A stretch of 24,245 nt of DNA, taken from the IMG/VR virus record IMGVR_UViG_3300014838_000917, positions 1 through 24,245 of that record, one strand, 5' to 3'. The first letter of the stretch is position 1. The number at the start of each line of letters is the position of its first letter. The notes beneath the pieces were generated by a model. The model was not told the origin of the DNA. It ran no database searches and saw only the letters and a list, made by a program, of their open reading frames with translations. Shown here one piece after another: positions 5,129 through 24,245 of the stretch. Both the position numbers and the translations under genes were made by a program. The stretch comes from a virus.

Positions 5129-5817
5129 TTTCCCTCTCCGTGCAGTCGGCCCGCGTTCCTGGGATGACGTCCCAGGCGGGCCAGACCCTCAATGCGATCC
5201 TCTCTGATCTGTGCCAGACCTACGACTTTGCGAAGGCGCTCAATACGACGACGGTCGTACTGACGTCGCAGGTGGGGTCCGGCCCCTATCCCCTTCCCGC
5301 GGACTATCTGCGTCTCGCGATCGACGAGGCGGTGTATCAGGTCGACGGCGTTCCCTACGTCATGGTGAATATCGACCTGGCGGAGTTCGACGCGGCCGTC
5401 CAGGTCGCGGGGCTTCAGAATTACCCGGTCAATTTTACGACAGACCCGTCTCAAACGCCGCCGGTCATGTATGTCTGGCCGCCGCCGACCGGGGTGTTCA
5501 ACGTGCAAATCCGCTATTATCGGCAAATGGCGGACATCACGACGCCGGAGACGTCGGCAACCGTGCCCTGGTTTCCGCATCAGAATTATCTGATCAAGCG
5601 GTTGTCCGGCGAATTGATGCAGCAGATCGCCAACGATGACCGCTACAAGGACTTTCTCGGCAGCTCCGAGGACGGTACCGGGGCGGCGGGGATTCTGCGT
5701 GAATATCTGCGCCTGCAAGACGACGACGAGGGGCGCGCAAAGACCGTGAAGCTCGACCGACGAAGGTTCGGCCGCAATTTTGGGAGACTCCCGGCGACCA
5801 AGCTGATCGGATTTTGA
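5104..5817 (+). CDS. Head-tail ring adaptor (P22 gp4 / T7 gp11-like)
   Basis: A 237-residue protein. An N-terminal helical region (TLNAILSDLCQTYDFAKAL) is followed by a beta section containing GPYPLPADYLRL, then VMYVWPPPTGVFNVQIRYYRQMADI and PWFPHQNYLIKRLSGELMQQI. This helical start, LPxDYLR segment, YYRQMADI strand and PWFP helix are what I associate with the adaptor ring proteins of short-tailed phages, which sit under the portal and connect to the nozzle. The C-terminus is basic (RRRFGRNFGRL). The next gene starts inside its stop (TGATG), and that partner looks like the nozzle, which supports the call. Family assignment is from pattern memory only. Confidence 0.7.
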   Translation: MPLTSAQIVSLSVQSARVPGMTSQAGQTLNAILSDLCQTYDFAKALNTTTVVLTSQVGSGPYPLPADYLRLAIDEAVYQVDGVPYVMVNIDLAEFDAAVQVAGLQNYPVNFTTDPSQTPPVMYVWPPPTGVFNVQIRYYRQMADITTPETSATVPWFPHQNYLIKRLSGELMQQIANDDRYKDFLGSSEDGTGAAGILREYLRLQDDDEGRAKTVKLDRRRFGRNFGRLPATKLIGF

Positions 5818-8800
5818 TGCCTCGGACGATCCCCTATAAATTCTCTCCTCAGGGCGTGACGGACACGCGCGATGTCGGCGCGCAACAGCAGCCGGGGTCT
5901 ATGATCGCCCTGACGAATTTGATCCCATCGGTGGACACTGCGAACCAATGGGTTGGCCGCCCTGGCGCGCTACAGCTGCCGAACTCGGCGACGAGCATGC
6001 TGTACGGGCCGATCACGGCGATGATCATTTCGGCTGATTTCATCGTCGGAATGGCGAATTCGTTCCTGTATCCGGGTTACGATGTTCCGTTTGTCTACAA
6101 TCTGGCGACGAATGCCTATGTAGCTATTACGGGGGTTACAGCCTCGAACGTTCCGCTCAGCGTGGCCAGTAACGATCCATCGTGGTTTATTCCGAATATT
6201 TGCACGGTTGGCGTAAAGCAGATCATTTGCCACCCCGGCTACTCGATAGCGGTCGGGTTCTTTTTTGGTTATATCGATTTTTCGAACGAATTGATCCCGG
6301 TTTACAATTCAGCCAACACGACGACCAATACTCTTCCCTATCAGCCGACGCTGTGTGTGAATTTCAACGAGCGCGCCATGTTCTTTATGAACCCGCCGGC
6401 GGGGGCGAACGCTCCGCCGGCGATCATAGGGAGTAACGTTCTGGAACCGCTGATTGTCGGCAACAGCAGCTACACGCTGACATTTGGCGACTACATCCCG
6501 CTTACGGCCGGGGCGGGCCTTCCGCTATCCAACCAATTAGGGGGTATTACTCAATCCCTGGTCGTGTTCAAGGGTACGACGAATATTTACCAGATCACAG
6601 GCGACTTCGCCTCTTCGATCTACATAAATTCCCTTAACGTCGCTACGGGGACAAATTCCCCCCTGGGTGTGGCCTCGACGCCGAACGGGTTGGCGTTCGT
6701 GTCGACGGATGGAATACGGCTGATTAATTTCCAAGGGCTGGTGTCGCCTCCGATCGGCTACAACGGGGAGGGGGTTGTCGCGCCCTTCTTGAATTCCGGC
6801 AATCCGGCAGAGATTTCCATGGCCTGTAATGGAACGATGCTGCGGATCTGCGGGCCGAACAGCGCGGGACAACAGCAAGATTGGATTTACAACATTGTTA
6901 CGCAGCAATGGGGCGGTCCTCACACGAATGCGGCGTCCTTTCTCGGGGTGTACGGATATGAGTTCATTGCCGCGTTTGCCTCTCCGTGGCAGCAGGGGCT
7001 ATGGCAGGAGTCTGTCGTCCCGACAGCCGCGTCGACGTATTCGGATGGCGTGTCTGCGGCTGCTGTGGGAACATTATCGTTTACAAATGGCACGATGCCG
7101 GGGGATCAGCTGGCGCTGAACGGGTCTATCTTTCCATTTATTTCGGGGGCGAGCAGCGGATACAACATTCAGGCGTCCTCGACGCCCGCGACAGCGGCCG
7201 CGAATGTTATACTCGCTCTCAGCGCCTCGACAGATGCGCAAGCCCTTCTTTGCAGTTATACGGCTGGGAATGTGATCGCAATCACATACAAGACGACGGG
7301 GACGTCTGGTAACAACTTCGATCTTTCGACAAATTCCCCCAATAATATTTTGTTCAGCGGGCCGACGTTGACCGGAGGAGCAACCGGCAAGTACGCCAGC
7401 GGTACGATTACATTTCCGAACGGGACGGTTCCCGGAGAAACGATGACTCTCGGGGCCGCGGCCAACGGTTCGGTCTGGACGTTCATCTCGGGGGCGAGCA
7501 GCGGATACAACATTCAGGCGTCCACAAACCCAACGTTGGCGACAATATACGCGCAGATAGCCTTGGCCGCATCGACAAATTCCCCTGTAGACCTCGCGAC
7601 ATATTCTTACGCATCGACCGTCGTTACGGTAACATACACCACGACGGGAGCCGTGGGGAATTCGTTCACGCTGAATTCGAACACGACGCAGACCGCGTAC
7701 TTGTCCAGTTATACACTATCAGGCGGTTCGACGGCCGCTGCTGCAACGGGGTCGTTCCTTTTTCCGACAGGCACAACGGCCGGTAATACGCTCAGTATCA
7801 ACGGTTCGGTCTGGACGTTCATCTCGGGGGCGAGCAGCGGATACAACATTCAGGCGTCGGCAACGGGAACGACGGCCGCCGCAAATGTGACGGCCGCTCT
7901 ATCGGCGTCGAGCGACGTGAATGCCCTGTTATGTACATATGCCACGTCGACAAGTACTACGAACATCACATGCAAAACAACAGGAACGGCAGGAAATAAC
8001 ATCAACATAGCGTGGACGCTAAACAACATCAGCGGGCCGACGTTGACCGGAGGCGCTGCGACGGTGAACGCGAGCGCGACGGTGACGTTTCCGTCTGGAA
8101 CGCAGCCGTCCCAAATACTCAACCTGAACGGCTCGGTGTTTACTTTCGCGTTGGCGAGCAGCGGATACAACATTCAGGCGTCCTCGACGCCCGCGACAGC
8201 GGCCACGAATGCCGCCGCGGCCCTTTCGGCGTCGAGCGACACGAATGCGCTGCTTTGCACCTATGCGGCGGTTGGAGACGTTCTGACGATCACCTATGCC
8301 ACGTCGGGGACCGGCGGAAATTCCTTCACCCTCGCGACCCTCCCCTCCGGTTCGTCCTATGTTTCGATGCCGACTTTGACCGGGGGCTCTCCGTTTATCG
8401 CGCCCTCCGGGACCTTTTATTTTCCAAGTGGGACCGTGGCGGGGATGATGCTCAACCTGAACGGCTCGGTGTTTTCCTTCGGACCTTCATCGAGCGGATA
8501 TGTCATCCAGGCCAATCCGACGCCGGGGACGGCTGCGACGAACGTGCAGGTGGCTCTCGCCGCATCGAGCGATCCGAATGCGTCCCTTTGCGCATATGCC
8601 GTGACAGGAACCAGCAATGTCACGGTGACCTATAAAACGACGGGGACGGCCGGGAATACCTTCGGCTTGTCCATAGGCCAGCTGTTTTCGGTCGGCGTCA
8701 CCGGGGCGACGCTCCAAGGCGGCTCTTCCGCGTCGCCAGAGTCGTTCGTTTTCCAGACGTCGTACCTGCCTCTTCGCGATGACATCCGGCAATGTGCGTC

Positions 8801-9062
8801 TGTGCTTTCTGTTCAATATGGCGCGGACGGCGGCGGCTCCTGGGCGGTGACCGCGACAGATCAGGCGGGGACAGTGATCGATAGCGTCACTCTCGCGCCG
8901 CCGGCAGTTCTCGCCGCGAACCAGATTCCCTGGAATGTTCCGCTTGTTTTCGACAAGATGAGCATCGCGGTGACAGGGCAGCTGAGCGCCGGGACGCGGA
9001 TCGGCGACCTGTATCTCGAATATCAACCTCTCGGGTATGTGCCGATCCCCTTCCCCGGATAG
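5817..9062 (+). CDS. Tail nozzle/hub protein (P22 gp10 / T7 gp12-like) with five tandem beta domains
   Basis: A 1081-residue protein starting at ATG 5817 (TGATG junction; a TTG one codon earlier is possible). Residues 1-410 resemble nozzle or 'packaged DNA stabilisation' proteins: an IPYKFSPQGVTDTRDVG start, repeated strand motifs, the QSLVVFKGTTNIYQITGDF segment and a GLAFVSTDGIRLINFQG blade-like unit, consistent with a beta-propeller hub. Residues about 414-970 are five repeats of about 110 residues, each with a NGSVWTFISGASSGYNIQAS-like core, an alanine-rich helix and a TYKTTGTAGNxF strand. The last 110 residues are a different, non-repeated beta domain. Nozzle proteins of this group are usually about 470-800 residues, so the repeat array accounts for the extra length. 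A hairpin (GGCTG/CAGCC, 9062-9076) follows the stop. Confidence 0.7.
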   Translation: MPRTIPYKFSPQGVTDTRDVGAQQQPGSMIALTNLIPSVDTANQWVGRPGALQLPNSATSMLYGPITAMIISADFIVGMANSFLYPGYDVPFVYNLATNAYVAITGVTASNVPLSVASNDPSWFIPNICTVGVKQIICHPGYSIAVGFFFGYIDFSNELIPVYNSANTTTNTLPYQPTLCVNFNERAMFFMNPPAGANAPPAIIGSNVLEPLIVGNSSYTLTFGDYIPLTAGAGLPLSNQLGGITQSLVVFKGTTNIYQITGDFASSIYINSLNVATGTNSPLGVASTPNGLAFVSTDGIRLINFQGLVSPPIGYNGEGVVAPFLNSGNPAEISMACNGTMLRICGPNSAGQQQDWIYNIVTQQWGGPHTNAASFLGVYGYEFIAAFASPWQQGLWQESVVPTAASTYSDGVSAAAVGTLSFTNGTMPGDQLALNGSIFPFISGASSGYNIQASSTPATAAANVILALSASTDAQALLCSYTAGNVIAITYKTTGTSGNNFDLSTNSPNNILFSGPTLTGGATGKYASGTITFPNGTVPGETMTLGAAANGSVWTFISGASSGYNIQASTNPTLATIYAQIALAASTNSPVDLATYSYASTVVTVTYTTTGAVGNSFTLNSNTTQTAYLSSYTLSGGSTAAAATGSFLFPTGTTAGNTLSINGSVWTFISGASSGYNIQASATGTTAAANVTAALSASSDVNALLCTYATSTSTTNITCKTTGTAGNNINIAWTLNNISGPTLTGGAATVNASATVTFPSGTQPSQILNLNGSVFTFALASSGYNIQASSTPATAATNAAAALSASSDTNALLCTYAAVGDVLTITYATSGTGGNSFTLATLPSGSSYVSMPTLTGGSPFIAPSGTFYFPSGTVAGMMLNLNGSVFSFGPSSSGYVIQANPTPGTAATNVQVALAASSDPNASLCAYAVTGTSNVTVTYKTTGTAGNTFGLSIGQLFSVGVTGATLQGGSSASPESFVFQTSYLPLRDDIRQCASVLSVQYGADGGGSWAVTATDQAGTVIDSVTLAPPAVLAANQIPWNVPLVFDKMSIAVTGQLSAGTRIGDLYLEYQPLGYVPIPFPG
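7058..8727 (+). repeat. Five tandem ~110-codon beta-domain repeats with near-identical DNA cores
   Basis: Repeats begin near 7058, 7380, 7729, 8056 and 8389. Most of each unit has diverged, but short DNA blocks are identical: 7148-7199 equals 8153-8204 (52 bp), 7463-7522 equals 7799-7858 (60 bp), and the sequence for GPTLTGG near 7355-7378 recurs near 8031-8053. The fifth unit shares only a short block (about 8451-8475) with the fourth. Different pairs share different blocks, which suggests repeated recombination or gene conversion between units. Confidence 0.85.
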
Positions 9063-9106: not shown

Positions 9107-9355
9107 ATGGGGTTTGCTCAAATGACGACGCCTGCGACACTCAATTTCGCCGCCCACGGAACCACCGCGATCTATCCGCTTTTTACGAATGACGGAAGCG
9201 GAAACTTGATGGCCTCGGGCGTGGCTCCGGTCATCGGCATGCTGGTCGAGCTGCGGCTTTTATCCACCTTCCTGAACACGAGCGGCCTCGATCTCGCGCC
9301 GATGCGTGCGGACGAGTTGGCCGAAATCCTGGTCGGCGGGAAGGGGTCTCTCTGA
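9107..9355 (+). CDS. Small virion-associated protein, paralogue of the next gene
   Basis: An 82-residue protein with an excellent ribosome-binding site (AGAGGAGG) before ATG 9107. The N-terminal half is beta-like (TPATLNFAAHGTTAIYPLF); the C-terminal half is VELRLLSTFLNTSGLDLAPMRADELAEIL. The second half is shared with the following gene, which starts in its stop codon (TGATG). Such small proteins downstream of the nozzle gene may be tail or head decoration subunits. No named family is recognised. Confidence 0.6.
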   Translation: MGFAQMTTPATLNFAAHGTTAIYPLFTNDGSGNLMASGVAPVIGMLVELRLLSTFLNTSGLDLAPMRADELAEILVGGKGSL

Positions 9356-9645
9356 TGCCCCAGGGCCTCGGAACAATTCCCTATGTGACGCTGACCGATC
9401 CTTCCCAGAGCGTCTACAATTTCAATATGTTGATCGAGCAGATCAACGCACAGCTGCTGAACAATGTCGCCGTCGTCGCCGGCCAGTTCGCACAGACGAG
9501 CAACCTCGCCTCGACCGGAACGGGACAGCTCACGGCGACGACGCTCGCGGCGCAGATTTCGATTCTGGTCGAACTTCGGGTAATCGCCAACCTGCTGAAT
9601 CCGACAGGCCTCGATCTCGCGCCGATGCGTGCGGACGAGTTGGCC
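9284..9645 (+). repeat. Identical 39-bp segment in two neighbouring paralogues
   Basis: 9284-9322 and 9607-9645 are identical and encode the GLDLAPMRADELA segment in the same reading frame of the two small genes. Flanking codons differ, so this is a conserved block between tandemly duplicated genes, kept by recent duplication or gene conversion. Confidence 0.85.
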
Positions 9646-9672
9646 AATATTCTGCCACCGGGCTCGCTTTAG
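9355..9672 (+). CDS. Small virion-associated protein, paralogue of the previous gene
   Basis: A 105-residue protein starting at the ATG that overlaps the upstream TGA. Residues about 20-60 form a helical and beta section (YNFNMLIEQINAQLLNNVAV) and residues about 63-100 repeat the VELRVIANLLNPTGLDLAPMRADELANIL module of its neighbour. Only the C-terminal module is shared; the N-terminal halves are unrelated by eye. Fusing the same C-terminal element to different N-termini suggests a docking or oligomerisation element. Function is otherwise unknown. Confidence 0.6.
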   Translation: MPQGLGTIPYVTLTDPSQSVYNFNMLIEQINAQLLNNVAVVAGQFAQTSNLASTGTGQLTATTLAAQISILVELRVIANLLNPTGLDLAPMRADELANILPPGSL

Positions 9673-10469: not shown

Positions 10470-10702
10470 GAACGCCGCGCGAAGAGGGGCAGGAGGCCGC
10501 GGAGAATTATCGCGCGGCCGCGGCCAAGGAGCGGCGGGATGAACTTTCCTGTACAGGCGATGTCTATGGCGGCGACCCGGAACCCGACGTTCCAATGGGA
10601 GCCATTTGCGCGGATCGCTCAGGAGGCGATGCCGGTATTGCGCGCCTATTGGGACGAGTCGCAAATCTTTGGGCGCGAATTGCCCATGGATCCGGATTTT
10701 GA
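10466..10702 (+). CDS. Possible small overlapping ORF before the GNAT gene
   Basis: A 78-codon frame starting at an ATG that overlaps the stop of the basic protein (ATGA). The first 30 residues (TPREEGQEAAENYRAAAAKE) look like a charged helix, but the remainder overlaps the GNAT gene by 164 bp in another frame and reads like a shadow. No ribosome-binding site stands at good spacing, so it would depend on coupling. It may be expressed as a coupling peptide or not be a gene at all. Confidence 0.25.
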   Translation: MRTPREEGQEAAENYRAAAAKERRDELSCTGDVYGGDPEPDVPMGAICADRSGGDAGIARLLGRVANLWARIAHGSGF

Positions 10703-11030
10703 CGCGTTCTTCCAGCTCGAGCGCGCAGGCCGATTCCGCGTCTATACTTGCCGCAGGCAGGGCCGGCTTATCGGGGTCAACAGCTTCATGGTCGGCGGGA
10801 CCCTCTTGCGCCGAGAACCGCCGACAGCCGCCGGGTTCATTCTCGTGCTGTCGCCGGCGGAACGGCGCGGCTGGACCGGCTACAAGCTCGTAAAGGGGGC
10901 GGAGGACGCATTCCGGGAGTGGGGCGTGCGTCTTGTGATTTACACGCCCAGCTCGACAACGGACCTCGGACCGATCTTGCGGCGCCTCGGATATCGGGAG
11001 CAGGGCGCGACTTACGAGAAACTCCTATGA
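10539..11030 (+). CDS. GNAT-fold acetyltransferase-like protein in the T7 gp13 position
   Basis: A 163-residue protein whose ATG has AAGGAG about 8 nt upstream. GNAT features: a VYTCRRQGRLIGVNSFMV strand pair (about 67-85), the acetyl-CoA loop-like RRGWTG (109-114) followed by a helix (YKLVKGAEDAFREWG), and the closing LRRLGYREQGATYEKLL. The pyrophosphate-binding loop matches the family's R-x-x-G-x-G/A pattern only loosely. Its position, after nozzle genes and before long internal-virion-like proteins, is that of T7 gene 13. It could be a true acetyltransferase acting on host or virion proteins, or a structural relic of the fold. The stop overlaps the next ATG (ATGA). Confidence 0.65.
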   Translation: MNFPVQAMSMAATRNPTFQWEPFARIAQEAMPVLRAYWDESQIFGRELPMDPDFDAFFQLERAGRFRVYTCRRQGRLIGVNSFMVGGTLLRREPPTAAGFILVLSPAERRGWTGYKLVKGAEDAFREWGVRLVIYTPSSTTDLGPILRRLGYREQGATYEKLL

Positions 11031-15612: not shown

Positions 15613-15893
15613 GCGACAGCCCCAAACTCGATCTTCTCCGCGAGGCCATCGCGGAGGACCTTCAGCTCCTGATCCACCGAGCTGAAATCGCCCTGGCGTT
15701 TATCGAAATTGCCGACGATGGCGGTCTCTATTATGCTGTCAGGACACTTATCGCTCACGCGAGGAATATCCACGCGTGCGCGAAGGACATAAGGATTATC
15801 CGGCATGGCGGAGAACCCGTTCGCGGATCTGATCCCGCAGCAGCAACAGCGGGTCAACCCGTTCGCGGATCTGATCCCAAAAGCCGCGGCTAA
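15609..15893 (+). CDS. Small helical protein overlapping the next gene
   Basis: A 94-residue frame starting at the ATG that overlaps the upstream stop (ATGA). Residues 1-65 make a convincing amphipathic helical protein (LDLLREAIAEDLQLLIHRAEIALAFIEIADDGG, then YYAVRTLIAHARN). The last 30 residues lie in the 89-bp overlap with the next gene and read as a repeated PVRGSDP, a frame-shifted copy of that gene's NPFADLIP duplication, so this tail may be of little functional weight. No family is recognised. Coding is supported by the coupled start and by filling the space between two large genes. Confidence 0.55.
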   Translation: MSDSPKLDLLREAIAEDLQLLIHRAEIALAFIEIADDGGLYYAVRTLIAHARNIHACAKDIRIIRHGGEPVRGSDPAAATAGQPVRGSDPKSRG

Positions 15894-18822
15894 ACCGGCG
15901 GGAGCCTCCCCGCTCGGCGGCGCAATGCCCACGGCGGCCGATCTCGCCGCCAAGGGATTCGGCCGCCAGCTCAGCGTCGGCCAAGAGCTCGGCGTCGCCG
16001 GCGAGCAGCTCGGGAAAATTTTGCCGCGCCCCTCCGATTACATGGAGAATGTCCGCGGTCAGCAGACGCAGGGCCTCGCCGCGCTGAAACAGGGCGGCCA
16101 GCAACTTTGGAATGGGTCCGGCCTCGGCGCGCGCGCACTCGGCGGCGTTCAGGCGGCCCAGGGAGGCCTTCAGTATCTCGGCTCTCCGATCGAGGGACTG
16201 ACGCGCACCGCGGTCGGCGACCCGGTTCAACGGGCCACAGGAAGCTCCTACGCCGGCGATCTCGCGGACTTCACCGCCGGCCTGTTGCTGCCCGAACCAT
16301 ATGGCCTGACGAAAAACCCCTTGCGCGCGGCTGCCCCGGCCATCACGCAAAAGGCCGGCGCCGAGCTGCTCGGCAAACCGCGCAATATGTTTCCCGAGGG
16401 CATGAAGCCCGAGACCCTCGAGCTTGCCCAGCGGCTCGGCGCGCCCGAGGAGGGCATGAAGCCCGAGACCCTCGAGCTTGCCCAGCGGCTCGGCGCGCCC
16501 GAGGAGGGCATGAAGCCCGAGACCCTCGAGCTTGCCCAGCGGCTCGGCGCGCCCGTTGCCGCGCGCGGCGCGGAGTCGCCAGGACAGCCGACAAGACAGC
16601 CGGTCGGCGCGATGCCTGCGCCGAATCAAACGCCTCCGTCCCTCGTTCCGGCTTCGACCGAAGACGCGAAAGGCCTCCTCCGCCAGCGATACGGGCTTTC
16701 TTCGCGCGATATCTCCATGGTCAATTCGGAGCTCGAGCAGCATTACAAGCCGGTCGCGAGATCGACCGCGGGCGAGTTGTGGGACATGGTCGACGCGGTC
16801 GAGGGACAGTCGCCGGCGTCGCGCGTCAAGCCAGCGCTTCAGCCGCTTATGGACACGATGCAGAGGATCGCCGGAGCCGAAAAAGACAAATTCCAGCGCA
16901 CCTACGCCACCTCCGGCATGAGTTTCATTCAGGACTATTTCCCGCATCTCTACAAAAACGACGCCGCGTTGCAGAGATTCATCGGAAACGTCGGTTCGCC
17001 CGGAGCCGGCATGGGACACATGGGCTCTTCCGCCTTGACCAAAAAGCGGTCGATGTTCCCCACTTGGCGCGATGCGCGCGCCGCCGGCCTCACTCCGAAA
17101 TACGATAACCCGATCGATATGTGGAAGGCCTCCTACGCGTCGAAATCGGAATTCATCGCCTCCCACGAAGTCAAGGAGGCGATGCAGGACGCCGGAACGC
17201 TCAGATATTTCGCACCGAGCAAGGCGCCCGAAGGCTGGGCGCCTATCCAAGGGCGCTTTGCCCGAAATATCGGCGGCGAGCAGGGGTACGCGCCCGCGGG
17301 CATCGCGTCCGCCTACAACAATTGGTATTCGCGCTCGATCGCGAGCACGCTGCAAAACCCTACTGCGAAGACGGTCTGGAATTCCGTCACGAGCGCCTTT
17401 AATTCCATGCGCGCGATGAAATTTGCGCTCTCTGGCTATCACGCGATGACCATGACCACGGAGAATTCATCGCGCGCTTTCGGCTCGGCGGTCGAGGACC
17501 TGGTGAGTGCGAAGCCGGTTCGATCCCTGAAAGATCTGATGGACGTCTTCCCCGCTGGAGTGTGGTGGCGCGGAAGGCAAGGGCAGGCGATCTATCGGGG
17601 ACTGCTGAAGGGAGATCCCGAGACCGAACATCTGATAAACATCATGGCGCAGGCGAACCCGTCGATCGGGAGAGCTTTTCGCTCCCCGGAAATGGAGGGG
17701 TCGCTTCAGGAATCCCTCCCGCAAATGATCGGCCGCGGCAATCTCGGCAAGAATATCACGGGCGGCCTGACCAAGATCCGGGATAGTTTTGTCCAGAACG
17801 GCCCCTTCAAGATGGAGCCCTACACGGACGTGACGGAAGGCTTCGTCCGCACCTTCGACAAGACGTCGGAGCTCATGTCGTCCTGGCTTTTCCGCAATTA
17901 CATCCCGAATTTGAAAACCGGCACCTTTATGCGGGATCTCGGCCGCTGGCTGCACGACAATCCGACCGCAGGGCAGACCGAGCAGCTCGCCGCCGCGCGC
18001 AAGATCTCGGATCATCTCGACGATATTTTCGGAGAGATGATGAAGGACAATTTGTTTTGGCCGCGATGGGCGGACGAAATATCGCAGAAGATCATGCTCG
18101 CCCCGAGCTACAATTTCGGGACTTATCGCGCTCTGGGCAAGGGGCTTTCTGGCCCGTTCAGAGGAAGAAGCTTCAACCCTGCGTCGCCGCGCTATGAGCC
18201 GGCGATGGGCTACACCATCGGCCTCGTTGCGACGACGGCCATGGCCGCCGCGATCGGCCAAAAAGTCATGACCGGAGAATGGCCGCAAAACCTTCAGGAC
18301 ATCCTGGCCGCCCGCACCGGCGGAACAACGGAGATCACGACAAAATCCGGCCACTATAAAAATGTGCCGGAGCGGCTCCGTCCTTATGGCAACGTCAAAG
18401 AAGCATACGACGTCGTGAAGGCGCTTGGGCTGCAGGGAGGCACACCGAATGTCGGCGGCTATCTGGGCAGCAAACTCAACCCGATGATGCAACTCGGCGG
18501 CGAGCTCTTATCGAATAAGGACTGGCGCGACGATCCGATCGTAACCGGCGAGCCCGGCTCCCATGCGCTCGGGCAGATCGGCGGCCATATAGCTCAGGCG
18601 TTCGAGCCGATCAGCGTAGGGCAGGGCCTGTTCGGCGGCGGCCAAGCGGGATCGCACATTCCGGCGCTGCTTCGCGGGACGCTTTCCCCCGCCGGGCGGC
18701 AATTGACAGACCCCGAGGGCTATCGCAAAATGCAAGAGCATTTCGCGGCAGACGCGGCCAAGAAAAAACGCAAGCACGCGGAATACGATCTCCACCATCA
18801 GAGAAACGAGGACGGCAGATGA
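15805..18822 (+). CDS. Large putative internal (ejected) virion protein
   Basis: A 1005-residue protein with AAGGA 9 nt before ATG 15805. It begins with a twice-repeated NPFADLIP motif (about residues 4-25), then a Gly/Ala/Leu-rich N-terminal region, three perfect EGMKPETLELAQRLGAPE repeats (198-251), and a long mixed helical body. Residues about 804-820 (YTIGLVATTAMAAAIG) form a hydrophobic, membrane-prone helix. The C-terminus is lysine-rich. Size, final place in the series and a membrane-prone helix fit the largest ejection protein of short-tailed phages (compare T7 gp16). No transglycosylase or peptidase active site could be seen, so enzymatic function is not claimed. The stop overlaps the next ATG. 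Confidence 0.6.
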   Translation: MAENPFADLIPQQQQRVNPFADLIPKAAAKPAGASPLGGAMPTAADLAAKGFGRQLSVGQELGVAGEQLGKILPRPSDYMENVRGQQTQGLAALKQGGQQLWNGSGLGARALGGVQAAQGGLQYLGSPIEGLTRTAVGDPVQRATGSSYAGDLADFTAGLLLPEPYGLTKNPLRAAAPAITQKAGAELLGKPRNMFPEGMKPETLELAQRLGAPEEGMKPETLELAQRLGAPEEGMKPETLELAQRLGAPVAARGAESPGQPTRQPVGAMPAPNQTPPSLVPASTEDAKGLLRQRYGLSSRDISMVNSELEQHYKPVARSTAGELWDMVDAVEGQSPASRVKPALQPLMDTMQRIAGAEKDKFQRTYATSGMSFIQDYFPHLYKNDAALQRFIGNVGSPGAGMGHMGSSALTKKRSMFPTWRDARAAGLTPKYDNPIDMWKASYASKSEFIASHEVKEAMQDAGTLRYFAPSKAPEGWAPIQGRFARNIGGEQGYAPAGIASAYNNWYSRSIASTLQNPTAKTVWNSVTSAFNSMRAMKFALSGYHAMTMTTENSSRAFGSAVEDLVSAKPVRSLKDLMDVFPAGVWWRGRQGQAIYRGLLKGDPETEHLINIMAQANPSIGRAFRSPEMEGSLQESLPQMIGRGNLGKNITGGLTKIRDSFVQNGPFKMEPYTDVTEGFVRTFDKTSELMSSWLFRNYIPNLKTGTFMRDLGRWLHDNPTAGQTEQLAAARKISDHLDDIFGEMMKDNLFWPRWADEISQKIMLAPSYNFGTYRALGKGLSGPFRGRSFNPASPRYEPAMGYTIGLVATTAMAAAIGQKVMTGEWPQNLQDILAARTGGTTEITTKSGHYKNVPERLRPYGNVKEAYDVVKALGLQGGTPNVGGYLGSKLNPMMQLGGELLSNKDWRDDPIVTGEPGSHALGQIGGHIAQAFEPISVGQGLFGGGQAGSHIPALLRGTLSPAGRQLTDPEGYRKMQEHFAADAAKKKRKHAEYDLHHQRNEDGR
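15814..15878 (+). repeat. 23-bp direct repeat encoding NPFADLIP twice
   Basis: 15814-15836 and 15856-15878 are identical. In the large virion gene they encode NPFADLIP twice at the N-terminus; in the overlapping small gene the same DNA gives PVRGSDP twice. The duplication therefore affected two proteins at once. Confidence 0.85.
16396..16557 (+). repeat. Three perfect 54-bp tandem repeats
   Basis: Units 16396-16449, 16450-16503 and 16504-16557 are identical except for the last codon of the third (GTT instead of GAG). Each encodes 18 residues, EGMKPETLELAQRLGAPE, a helix-forming segment. Perfect identity implies recent expansion by slippage or unequal recombination, and the copy number may vary between relatives. 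Confidence 0.95.
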
Positions 18823-19193
18823 AACACGATCGGATCGTCAGGGTAACGCGACATGCGCTCGCCAGATACCTGCTGCGATTTATGGAAATCGATACCCAGA
18901 AGATCAAACGACAACTTCAGGAAAGTCCAGGGAAATATAGAGATAACGAGATCGTCGTTTTTGCACGAGACGAGCTGAAAATCGACATCGAGTCGATCGA
19001 GCGGCAAATCGTAGATATATGCCGACCCGCGTGCGAATTGCAGCTCGATACGTGGCCGCATGGGCCTATCCAATTCAAATTGGACGGCTTCCTCGTCGTC
19101 ACGTGCGAGAGAAATAAAAAACATTACCGCCCGGCTACAAAGCGCCATCGTCATGCTCTGAAAGAGGAAACTGTAGATGAAGGCGAATTTTAG
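18819..19193 (+). CDS. Small protein of unknown function
   Basis: A 124-residue protein whose ATG overlaps the stop of the large virion gene. The N-terminus VRVTRHALARYLLRFMEID has the basic RHALxRYxxRF pattern found in several small phage and toxin-like families (DUF4258-type among them), followed by a helical section, a strand pair (GPIQFKLDGFLVVTCERN) and a basic then acidic tail. The similarity is too short for a firm assignment. Codon use is less GC-rich than the upstream virion genes, and the gene sits between the structural block and the PurD-like enzyme, so it may be an accessory rather than a virion gene. Confidence 0.55.
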   Translation: MKHDRIVRVTRHALARYLLRFMEIDTQKIKRQLQESPGKYRDNEIVVFARDELKIDIESIERQIVDICRPACELQLDTWPHGPIQFKLDGFLVVTCERNKKHYRPATKRHRHALKEETVDEGEF

Positions 19194-19211: not shown

Positions 19212-20537
19212 ATGCGCTGCTTGATTATCGATCCGTTCGGCGACGCTCTCGATCTCGGCATGCGCGCACGCGCGGCCGGACATCAGGTGCGTTATTTCGT
19301 TCGAGACGAGGACGCCACACGCGAAATAGGCGCTGGACTCCTCGACGTCACACGCGATTTCCAGGCTGAATTCAAATGGGCGGACTTGATTTTCTGCGCC
19401 GATAACGGGCTCTACCAGCGTGAGATATCCTCACAACGTCAGCTATACCCTGGGAAACCGATCGTCGGCCACAATCCGGAAGTCAGAGAATGGGAAATCA
19501 ACCGCACGCTCGGACAGGACATCCTGAAGCGCGCAGGCGTCGATGTTGCTCCCTACAAGGAATTTTCCGATTACGACCACGCGATCAAATATGTGAAATC
19601 GCGCAATACCCGGCTGGTCTGTAAGCCATGCAGCGACGAGGATAAATCGTTGTCCTATGTGTCCACAGGCCCAGCGGATTTGGTCTGGATGCTCGAGCGC
19701 TGGAAAAAACGGCAGCCGCTCAAGGGGACCTTTATCATTCAGGATTTTGTCGCCGGGGAGGAAATTTCCGCCGGCGGCTATTTTGGCCCGTCCGGCTTCA
19801 TCGAAGGTCTGTGGGTGGATGCGGAGGACAAGCGGCTGATGAGCGGCGGACGCGGGCCGAATACCGGTTCGATGGGCGCTATTACGGTGTTCCAGACGAA
19901 GCAGAGGAATTCTCTCGCTCGGCAGGTGCTGCTGCCACTCGAAGACCGCCTCGCCGAAGCCGGGTACGTCGGTTCGATCGACGTGTCGGTCATTATCAAC
20001 GAAGACGGCGAGCCGATCCCGCTCGAATTCACCTGTCGGCCCGGCTATCCGAGTCTCCAGATCGAAGCGGAGCTGAGAGAGGGAGATCCTCTCGATTGGC
20101 TGGTTGATTTGTGCGAGGGCCATGATCCAAAAAATGCCATTCTCGACACGGTCGCGTGCGGCGTCATGCTCAAGATTCTGGCCTCGGCCGACAAGGCCAT
20201 GACCCACGCGGACGAAATAGGCGTCCCTGTCTACGGACTCACAGACCGATTATGGCGCCACTTCCACCCCTATCATTTGATGGCGGGGGAAGCCCCCGTA
20301 GACGCCGAGCAAGGGCCGTCGACGGCCATCATGCCATGCTCCGCCGGGCGATACGTCGGAGTCGTCACCGGAACGGGAGATACGGTTTCCGCCGCGCGCC
20401 GAGCCGCCTATAAACGCGTATCGCAAATCAAAATCCCGCTGAGCATGGTCTACCGCGACGACATCGGCGAGCGACTGAAGGGCGACCTGGTCGATCTCCA
20501 CCGTCATGGATATGCTATAGGTCTCGATTATGCCTAA
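19212..20537 (+). CDS. PurD-like ATP-grasp ligase (phosphoribosylamine-glycine ligase homologue)
   Basis: A 441-residue protein, close to the 420-430 of bacterial PurD. Visible family features: ATP-grasp section with LVCKPC (135-140) and FIIQDFVAGEEISAGGYF (174-191); the PurD substrate signature GPNTGSMGA (215-223; usually GPNTGGMGA); YVGSIDVSVII then EFTCRPGYP (272-280; usually EFNxRFGDPE); and the C-terminal domain with GRYVGVVTGTGDTVSAARRAAY and VYRDDIGERL. Canonical PurD forms glycinamide ribonucleotide from phosphoribosylamine, glycine and ATP in purine synthesis. Here the N-terminal GGREHAL loop is absent (IDPFGDALDLGMRA stands there) and the metal-site Asn and DPE residues are changed, so the substrate may differ. 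It could be an auxiliary purine gene or a ligase in another pathway. Confidence 0.8.
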   Translation: MRCLIIDPFGDALDLGMRARAAGHQVRYFVRDEDATREIGAGLLDVTRDFQAEFKWADLIFCADNGLYQREISSQRQLYPGKPIVGHNPEVREWEINRTLGQDILKRAGVDVAPYKEFSDYDHAIKYVKSRNTRLVCKPCSDEDKSLSYVSTGPADLVWMLERWKKRQPLKGTFIIQDFVAGEEISAGGYFGPSGFIEGLWVDAEDKRLMSGGRGPNTGSMGAITVFQTKQRNSLARQVLLPLEDRLAEAGYVGSIDVSVIINEDGEPIPLEFTCRPGYPSLQIEAELREGDPLDWLVDLCEGHDPKNAILDTVACGVMLKILASADKAMTHADEIGVPVYGLTDRLWRHFHPYHLMAGEAPVDAEQGPSTAIMPCSAGRYVGVVTGTGDTVSAARRAAYKRVSQIKIPLSMVYRDDIGERLKGDLVDLHRHGYAIGLDYA

Positions 20538-23344: not shown

Positions 23345-24245
23345 GTGCGGATCCTTTCGGAATACCACGTTTGCGAAATCCCATATTGCCACGCCTCAGC
23401 CTCATGCGGACTGCGCACCTCGAGAGGAACCCCCTCGATAAATTCCCGTCTCGATCCATCCGGCTCGAGCGTCCCGTTTCTGAGCCGGATAACCCGCATT
23501 CTCTCGTCGCCGACGACGATGTCTATGAGTTCGCGCGCCTGGCCGTGAATAATGTCCGTGCTGACACATGTGCCGTCGAGCATTTCAAGCGCTCTGTCCC
23601 ACCCGATTACCTCACACATCACACGCCGGATTTCCGTGTTCGTCTCGGCCAGGATCGAGGCTTTATTTATCCGCTCTGGCTGGGCGATGATCCACGCGTT
23701 ATCGTCGCTCAAAACCAGGCCGTGCCACACATGCACAGAGAACCCGTCCCGCCATAATAGCGCGGGGCCGGAATCGGAGTGTAGCCGCCTACTATCGTCG
23801 AGCTTGATCATTAGCGGGCGGTCTGAAACGATACAGAATTTTTCGTGCATTACGCGAGGGCCGCCATGAATAGCCGCGCTCTCATAGAAGGTATAACTAG
23901 TGCATGCCGATAGATCTATTTTTGCAATATCACGGAAAAACGACACATATGCACACCAACCACTCCACAAATTTCCGTAATTTTGTATTATCAGCGGCTG
24001 TTCACAGCATTCTATCATCAGACTAGACATGTCCGGCGCGAGCTCCTTTGCCAGCTCGACAGCCCACCCTCTGCCGCGGGCGCGCACCGCGCCGCGCACC
24101 GCGTAGTCCACCACGTCTCGCACCGCGGCGAGCGACGCGTCGTTCACCGCGTCGCGCGCCGTGTAGTCCACCGCCTCGCTCAGCGCGGCGCGCGTCGCGG
24201 CGAGCGTCGCGACGCTCGCCCGGACGTCCACCGAGCCGCGCGCCG
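23341..24245 (-). CDS. DUF6745-like protein with Ala/Val-rich repeats, open at the window edge
   Basis: The reverse frame is open from the right edge to TGA at 23343-23341. A GTG at 24231 gives 296 residues, but no stop lies between it and the edge, so the true start may be outside. Residues 1-55 (from the GTG) are Ala/Val/Arg/Asp-rich, with a 20-residue repeat around two VDY motifs. Residues about 120-212 hold HGGPRVMHEKFCIVSDRPL, RLHSDSGPALLWRDGFSVHVWHGL and ETNTEIRRVMCEVIG, which I recognise as the DUF6745 pattern. Function is unknown. It is the first visible gene of the leftward operon and coupled to the next gene by ATGA. Base composition changes between the GC-rich repeats and the AT-richer DUF part. 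Confidence 0.65.
   Translation of the reverse strand, partial: ARGSVDVRASVATLAATRAALSEAVDYTARDAVNDASLAAVRDVVDYAVRGAVRARGRGWAVELAKELAPDMSSLMIECCEQPLIIQNYGNLWSGWCAYVSFFRDIAKIDLSACTSYTFYESAAIHGGPRVMHEKFCIVSDRPLMIKLDDSRRLHSDSGPALLWRDGFSVHVWHGLVLSDDNAWIIAQPERINKASILAETNTEIRRVMCEVIGWDRALEMLDGTCVSTDIIHGQARELIDIVVGDERMRVIRLRNGTLEPDGSRREFIEGVPLEVRSPHEAEAWQYGISQTWYSERIRT
24101..24200 (-). repeat. 60-bp-period degenerate repeat in the DUF6745-like gene
   Basis: The word GTAGTCCACC recurs at 24103 and 24163, exactly 60 bp apart, with partly matching flanks. It encodes the 20-residue units AVDYTARDAV and VVDYAVRGAV with their neighbours. It may continue beyond the window edge. Confidence 0.55.

Follow-up and report, generated by a model that had tools for sequence, protein, structure and literature searches.

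What does a phage do with a gene resembling purD, placed at the end of the operon for its virion? The question is raised by a virus record of 24,245 bases, analysed here in its entirety (the window), which is a fragment of a phage genome. At positions 19212..20537 (+) it carries a real open reading frame, running from ATG to TAA with positive codon bias, for a putative PurD-derived ATP-grasp ligase of 441 aa in which the N, A, B and C domains are all present. A first-pass annotation had seen a PurD homologue lacking the N-terminal substrate loop, and had suggested a new ligase activity rather than plain purine supply. Our reading, to which we assign a probability of roughly 0.6, is that the protein is a PurD paralogue other than a GAR synthetase, acting as a carboxylate-amine ligase with an acceptor that is not phosphoribosylamine.

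The protein belongs to the PurD superfamily by descent, as the annotation had proposed. It matches Pfam GARS_A (E 4.4e-12) and GARS_C (E 2.4e-6; 28.2 bits, below the cut-off of 34.8), scores 77 bits with the PurD model TIGR00877, and finds GAR synthetases among PDB sequences, down to E 1e-16. An AlphaFold model (pLDDT 91, pTM 0.89), for which the input alignment comprised 81 sequences from the window and viral contigs, shows the ATP-grasp A/B and C domains in the order and fold of GAR synthetase. In a structure search with this model, GAR synthetases make up the whole of the best 13 PDB entries (Z 28.7-33.3), and PurK and PurT follow at less than 24. The model also covers the N domain whole. 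The domain set is thus complete, and the losses concern residues, not a domain: the loop residues are indeed replaced, but the N domain is not missing. No PHROG matched the protein, and none of the viral predicted structures resembled it closely.

By the sequence tests, the protein is not a GAR synthetase. Its score with TIGR00877 compares with an equivalog cut-off of 288 bits, and GARS_N found no match in a Pfam search. The PurD signature PS00184 (R-[LF]-G-D-P-E-x-[EQIM], as quoted in PMC3261824) fails, with RPGYPSLQ in the window and RPGWPTFN in the family. Family members in other phages give the same picture: GARS_A and GARS_C are matched by 81 of 81 aligned sequences and GARS_N by at most one, at E up to 1. 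Phage and cellular members score 77-94 bits with the PurD model, versus 613 for a true PurD.

Residues were compared across 82 phage sequences, 14 cellular paralogues (described below, and forming one clade with the phage sequences) and 9 PurD sequences. In the residue alignment, residues 7-14 of the window protein (DPFGDALD; 19230..19253, +) stand where PurD has its GxGGREHA loop, and D14 is common to the clade. The N-domain GPE-PL motif is gone from the clade together with this GGREHA loop; in PurD both face the phosphoribosylamine side. The PurD motif EFNxRFGDPE has become EFTCRPGYP at residues 272-280 (20025..20051, +), with T274 for Asn and Y or W279 for Asp, while E272, R276, G278 and P280 are retained; T281 replaces Glu in the clade. 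The Asn of EFN is Thr in 82/82 phage sequences. Residues 257-259 are DVS (19980..19988, +): D257 takes the place of a PurD Tyr, and position 259, a Gly in PurD, carries Asn in the clade and Ser in the window. R98, D257, T274, W/Y279 and T281 all stand in place of PurD residues. The replacements noted in the first-pass annotation are therefore present, and the changes at the substrate side and the metal site are fixed across the 82 phage and 14 cellular sequences.

The other half of the active site is conserved. The ATP-site lysines K138 and K145 (residues 138-145; 19623..19646, +) are retained in 100% of the 82 phage sequences, as are E184, K207, E272 and R276, and all six are found in nearly all cellular ones. 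Also kept in the clade are the GxxTG turn, G278, P280 and the C-domain motif RxDIG, which reads RDDIG at residues 415-419 (20454..20468, +) and is followed by a clade-specific C-terminal extension with an invariant G433. Going by ATP-grasp role assignments, we take the kept residues to form the ATP site and the half in which the activated carboxylate is bound. In contrast to the invariant ATP-site residues, those of the metal site are rearranged, with Thr for Asn at 274 and Asp for Tyr at 257. Given the changes at T274, W/Y279, T281, D257 and N259, the metal site may be rebuilt.

The window copy has the clade residues E95xxR98, Q177, E205xK207, D257, EFTxR(F/P)G and the C-terminal extension with G-Y. 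It departs from the clade at E220 and N259, both Ser, and in two extra residues after MG. Residues 215-222 read GPNTGSMG (19854..19877, +) against a clade consensus of G(V/P)xTGE(Q/M)G, in which the E at 220 is near-invariant. The shorter form TGE.G-T, by two residues, occurs in 98% of the phage family and in all cellular sisters. The PurD-like MGA of the annotated GPNTGSMGA signature results from these departures; the signature is present in the window, but makes this copy more PurD-like than its family, to which it is an exception. Because of positions 220 and 259, the insertion and a long branch in the tree, the window copy may have drifted in function.

The family is widespread among uncultured phages. 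Scans of IMG/VR returned at least about 550 candidate contigs at E 1e-3, and at least 80 full-length loci were kept in the larger scan; the family loci compared here are the best-scoring ones. Exactly one copy of the gene was found in each of the 29 related long records searched. One GenBank phage, MW202796, has a family member (38% identity), and two phages with a similar capsid, MW202477 and MW202637, gave no family match in either genome. MW202637 has a gene annotated as a putative amidoligase (L087:10638-12692), another possible ligase, on the replication side. We considered this gene as a counterpart in a relative without the family gene and rejected it, as it sits elsewhere in that genome. 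In 39 close pairs of phage family genes dN/dS is 0.02-0.14; the window copy is in none of these pairs, as even its closest relatives share just 50% identity with it. By these ratios, the phage gene is under strong purifying selection. A literature search for a phage PurD-like ligase turned up none.

Relatives are also encoded in cells. Our first impression was that there were none, as phage-specific patterns run on genome contigs gave only an ordinary PurD fragment; tblastn and profile searches then recovered a sister clade from Bacteroidota, alphaproteobacterial plasmids and a haloarchaeon. On plasmids, tblastn identified relatives that are full-length in a haloarchaeon and a Roseomonas but frameshifted in a Sphingomonas; the Sphingomonas copy, on a Sphingomonas daechungensis plasmid (L109:11513-12813), is annotated in two pieces. 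A profile search of whole genomes in the phylum of a Bacteroidales genome gave 422-453 bits in 5 of 296 genomes and at most 134 for everything else reported. The paralogue occurs in 12 of 245 genomes in the class of one carrier, and in one genome outside that class (G309). Each of the 13 paralogue-bearing genomes checked encodes a true PurD above the cut-off as well, the paralogue itself scoring 78-118 bits with the PurD model there; it is therefore no replacement for PurD. A maximum-likelihood tree resolves three supported groups, phage (98/97), cellular paralogue (98/88) and PurD (100/100), with long branches for the window, one cellular sequence (cell_L108) and two PurD rows. The phylogeny and active-site mapping that had been suggested as checks thus place the phage family apart from PurD, with changed substrate-side residues. 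The fixed changes, the clean split in the tree and the retention of true PurD by carriers support the earlier preference for a different ligase over purine supply.

The cellular side of this clade has probably been noticed before. A 2011 survey of archaeal purine genes judged two haloarchaeal 'extra' PurD-like proteins, Haloarcula rrnAC0307 and Halorubrum Hlac_1553, not to be GAR synthetases (PMC3261824). Both are reported to be missing GARS_N, the Mg-binding sites and the PS00184 Asp (PMC3261824), the same losses as in the clade, and their genomes also hold a true PurD, like those of the cellular paralogues. They were described from cells alone and are uncharacterised, whereas the clade here extends to phages. 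They probably belong to the same group, judging by the common losses and by a member of the clade in Halarchaeum rather than by their own sequences. The novelty of the ligase suggested in the first-pass annotation is relative, as proteins with the same losses were already in print.

We found no reaction assigned in the literature to the cellular side of the family. In one cell genome the paralogue is fifth in an array, immediately behind aspartokinase, dapB, dapA and dapD. An MR_MLE enzyme, which we take to be dipeptide-epimerase-like, lies with a DUF1611 gene beside the paralogue in two genomes, and a GNAT gene directly follows it in four closely related ones. The cellular neighbourhoods are mixed, and several copies are solitary. 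These loci, from few genomes of one group, give no more than hints of amino-acid chemistry.

The window has a major capsid gene at 2412, tail genes and a plus-strand late operon that extends to about 20.5 kb; behind it, the minus strand encodes replication and recombination functions (RusA-like, AAA ATPase, exonuclease VIII-like). Across the family, the ligase gene closes the late virion operon, away from the replication genes, which agrees with its earlier placement behind the structural genes. In 65/65 of the best-scoring loci, the conserved gene that follows is read from the other strand. In many family loci it overlaps the preceding gene (-4 or -1 bp), and we predict that it is usually translationally coupled to that virion-operon gene. 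In the window, a small late gene matching phrog_8252 (18819..19193, +) ends 18 bp before the ligase gene. It is preceded by a gene for a 1005-aa protein (15805..18822, +) of a conserved cluster usually found just upstream of the ligase gene. By position only, this is a probable internal virion (ejection) protein, and the long proteins that precede the ligase gene across loci are taken for the same.

Repeats and other genes were also noted in the window. Within the 1005-aa protein, a 54-bp unit (EGMKPETLELAQRLGAPE) occurs three times in frame with no mismatch (16396-16555), reflecting either an expansion of very recent date or an artefact of assembly. A 1082-aa late protein (5814-9062) has several repeats of about 100 residues (FPxGT..LNGSV.TF..ASSGYNIQAS), and four of its stretches match phrog_28344. 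Two adjoining small ORFs (9107-9672) are paralogues with 58% identity over 50 C-terminal residues, and short degenerate GC-rich repeats occur at the record end (24074-24217). The late operon also encodes a GNAT-like acetyltransferase (10539..11030, +); among the best-scoring loci, 52 have 6.5 kb or more of upstream sequence, and in 45 of these a member of its cluster lies further up from the ligase gene. Phages described as lacking the ligase have a comparable GNAT next to their internal virion genes (PMC6775973). An attractive role as dedicated partner of the ligase was rejected on this ground and because the phage and cellular GNATs align poorly and are not closely related.

Sequence, model and tree show the gene to be the viral branch of a PurD-paralogue family distinct from GAR synthetase; its product is likely an active ATP-grasp carboxylate-amine ligase. 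With the acceptor half altered and the ATP and acyl-phosphate half intact, a ligase is the simplest reading. It has in common with PurD the fold, domain order, ATP-grasp core and RxDIG motif; it differs in lacking the GGREHA loop and RFGDPE, in the Asn-to-Thr and Tyr-to-Asp changes at metal-site positions, in its C-terminal extension and in its separate clade. The carboxylate that ATP phosphorylates would be small, probably an amino acid like the glycine of PurD, with R276 and the GxxTG turn keeping it in place; an amine other than phosphoribosylamine would then attack the resulting acyl phosphate. Other ATP-grasp carboxylate-amine ligases include L-amino-acid ligases such as YwfE, PylC and dapdiamide synthase, in which an acyl phosphate meets an amine, the same chemistry as we propose. 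These ligases resemble the protein in structure less closely than PurD does (PylC, Z 22), and no sequence relation exists beyond the superfamily.

The nature of the acceptor can be suggested only tentatively. It may be the amine of an amino acid, peptide or protein, which would make this a dipeptide-type or protein-tagging ligase produced late, beside virion proteins; we hold this to be possible, at rather less than even odds. Late expression beside the virion genes would leave room for a virion protein or the cell wall as substrate. A more specific version is doubtful, namely that a widespread late enzyme, recruited from a PurD paralogue of cells, joins an amino acid to a virion or ejection protein or to an amino acid of the cell wall. 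We know of no described phage precedent for such peptide-bond-forming activity.

The same position, directly after probable internal virion proteins and with translational coupling, would also suit a catalytically dead PurD relative that serves as a virion or assembly protein. We regard this as unlikely: K138, K145, E184, K207, E272 and R276 are invariant in the 82 phage sequences, and nearly all cellular paralogues keep the ATP-site residues, yet are not virion proteins. A counter-defence or host-takeover enzyme, ligating a host signal molecule or host protein, would fit a gene that is widely conserved under strong purifying selection and has no pathway partner elsewhere in the phage genome. 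The late-operon position speaks against it, since counter-defence genes tend to be early, and no defence context surrounds the cellular sisters in the few loci read; we consider this reading quite improbable.

Addition of an amino acid or amine to a nucleotide or base for phage DNA modification was the first-pass suggestion, and is very unlikely. An ATP-grasp ligase with a changed substrate site could serve this purpose, post-replicative late expression would be possible, a GNAT is encoded, and MW202796 also has a cytosine methyltransferase. The expected base-precursor enzymes are nevertheless missing: the search for modification genes in related genomes identified no thymidylate-synthase-like enzyme (synthase or hydroxymethylase) in 29 related records and no PurZ-like enzyme in 30. 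Two genomes, one with most of its genes and the other with a selection, were scanned with Pfam and showed no gene for purine synthesis or modification. Cellular proteins encoded outside any modification locus seen are the closest relatives, and the idea is left with no support. Also very unlikely is an ordinary, fast-diverged PurD that boosts purine supply in infection as an auxiliary metabolic gene, which the ancestry and full fold would favour but which is contradicted, since three of the four PurD membership tests made fail and the fourth, fold and domain order, follows from ancestry. The GARS signature fails, the N-loop is lost family-wide, the EFN Asn is uniformly replaced in the phage sequences, the PurD-model score is far below its cut-off, cells with the sister gene have a true PurD besides, and no further purine gene was found in the scanned genomes.

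In summary, a single conspicuous metabolic-type enzyme is found in each of many related uncultured phages. It is under strong purifying selection, and no reaction is known for its family in either phages or cells. Automatic annotation labels such proteins GAR synthetase-like, and their genes can therefore easily be mistaken for purine auxiliary metabolic genes. The reaction of either the phage or the cellular branch, once found, would help identify that of the other.
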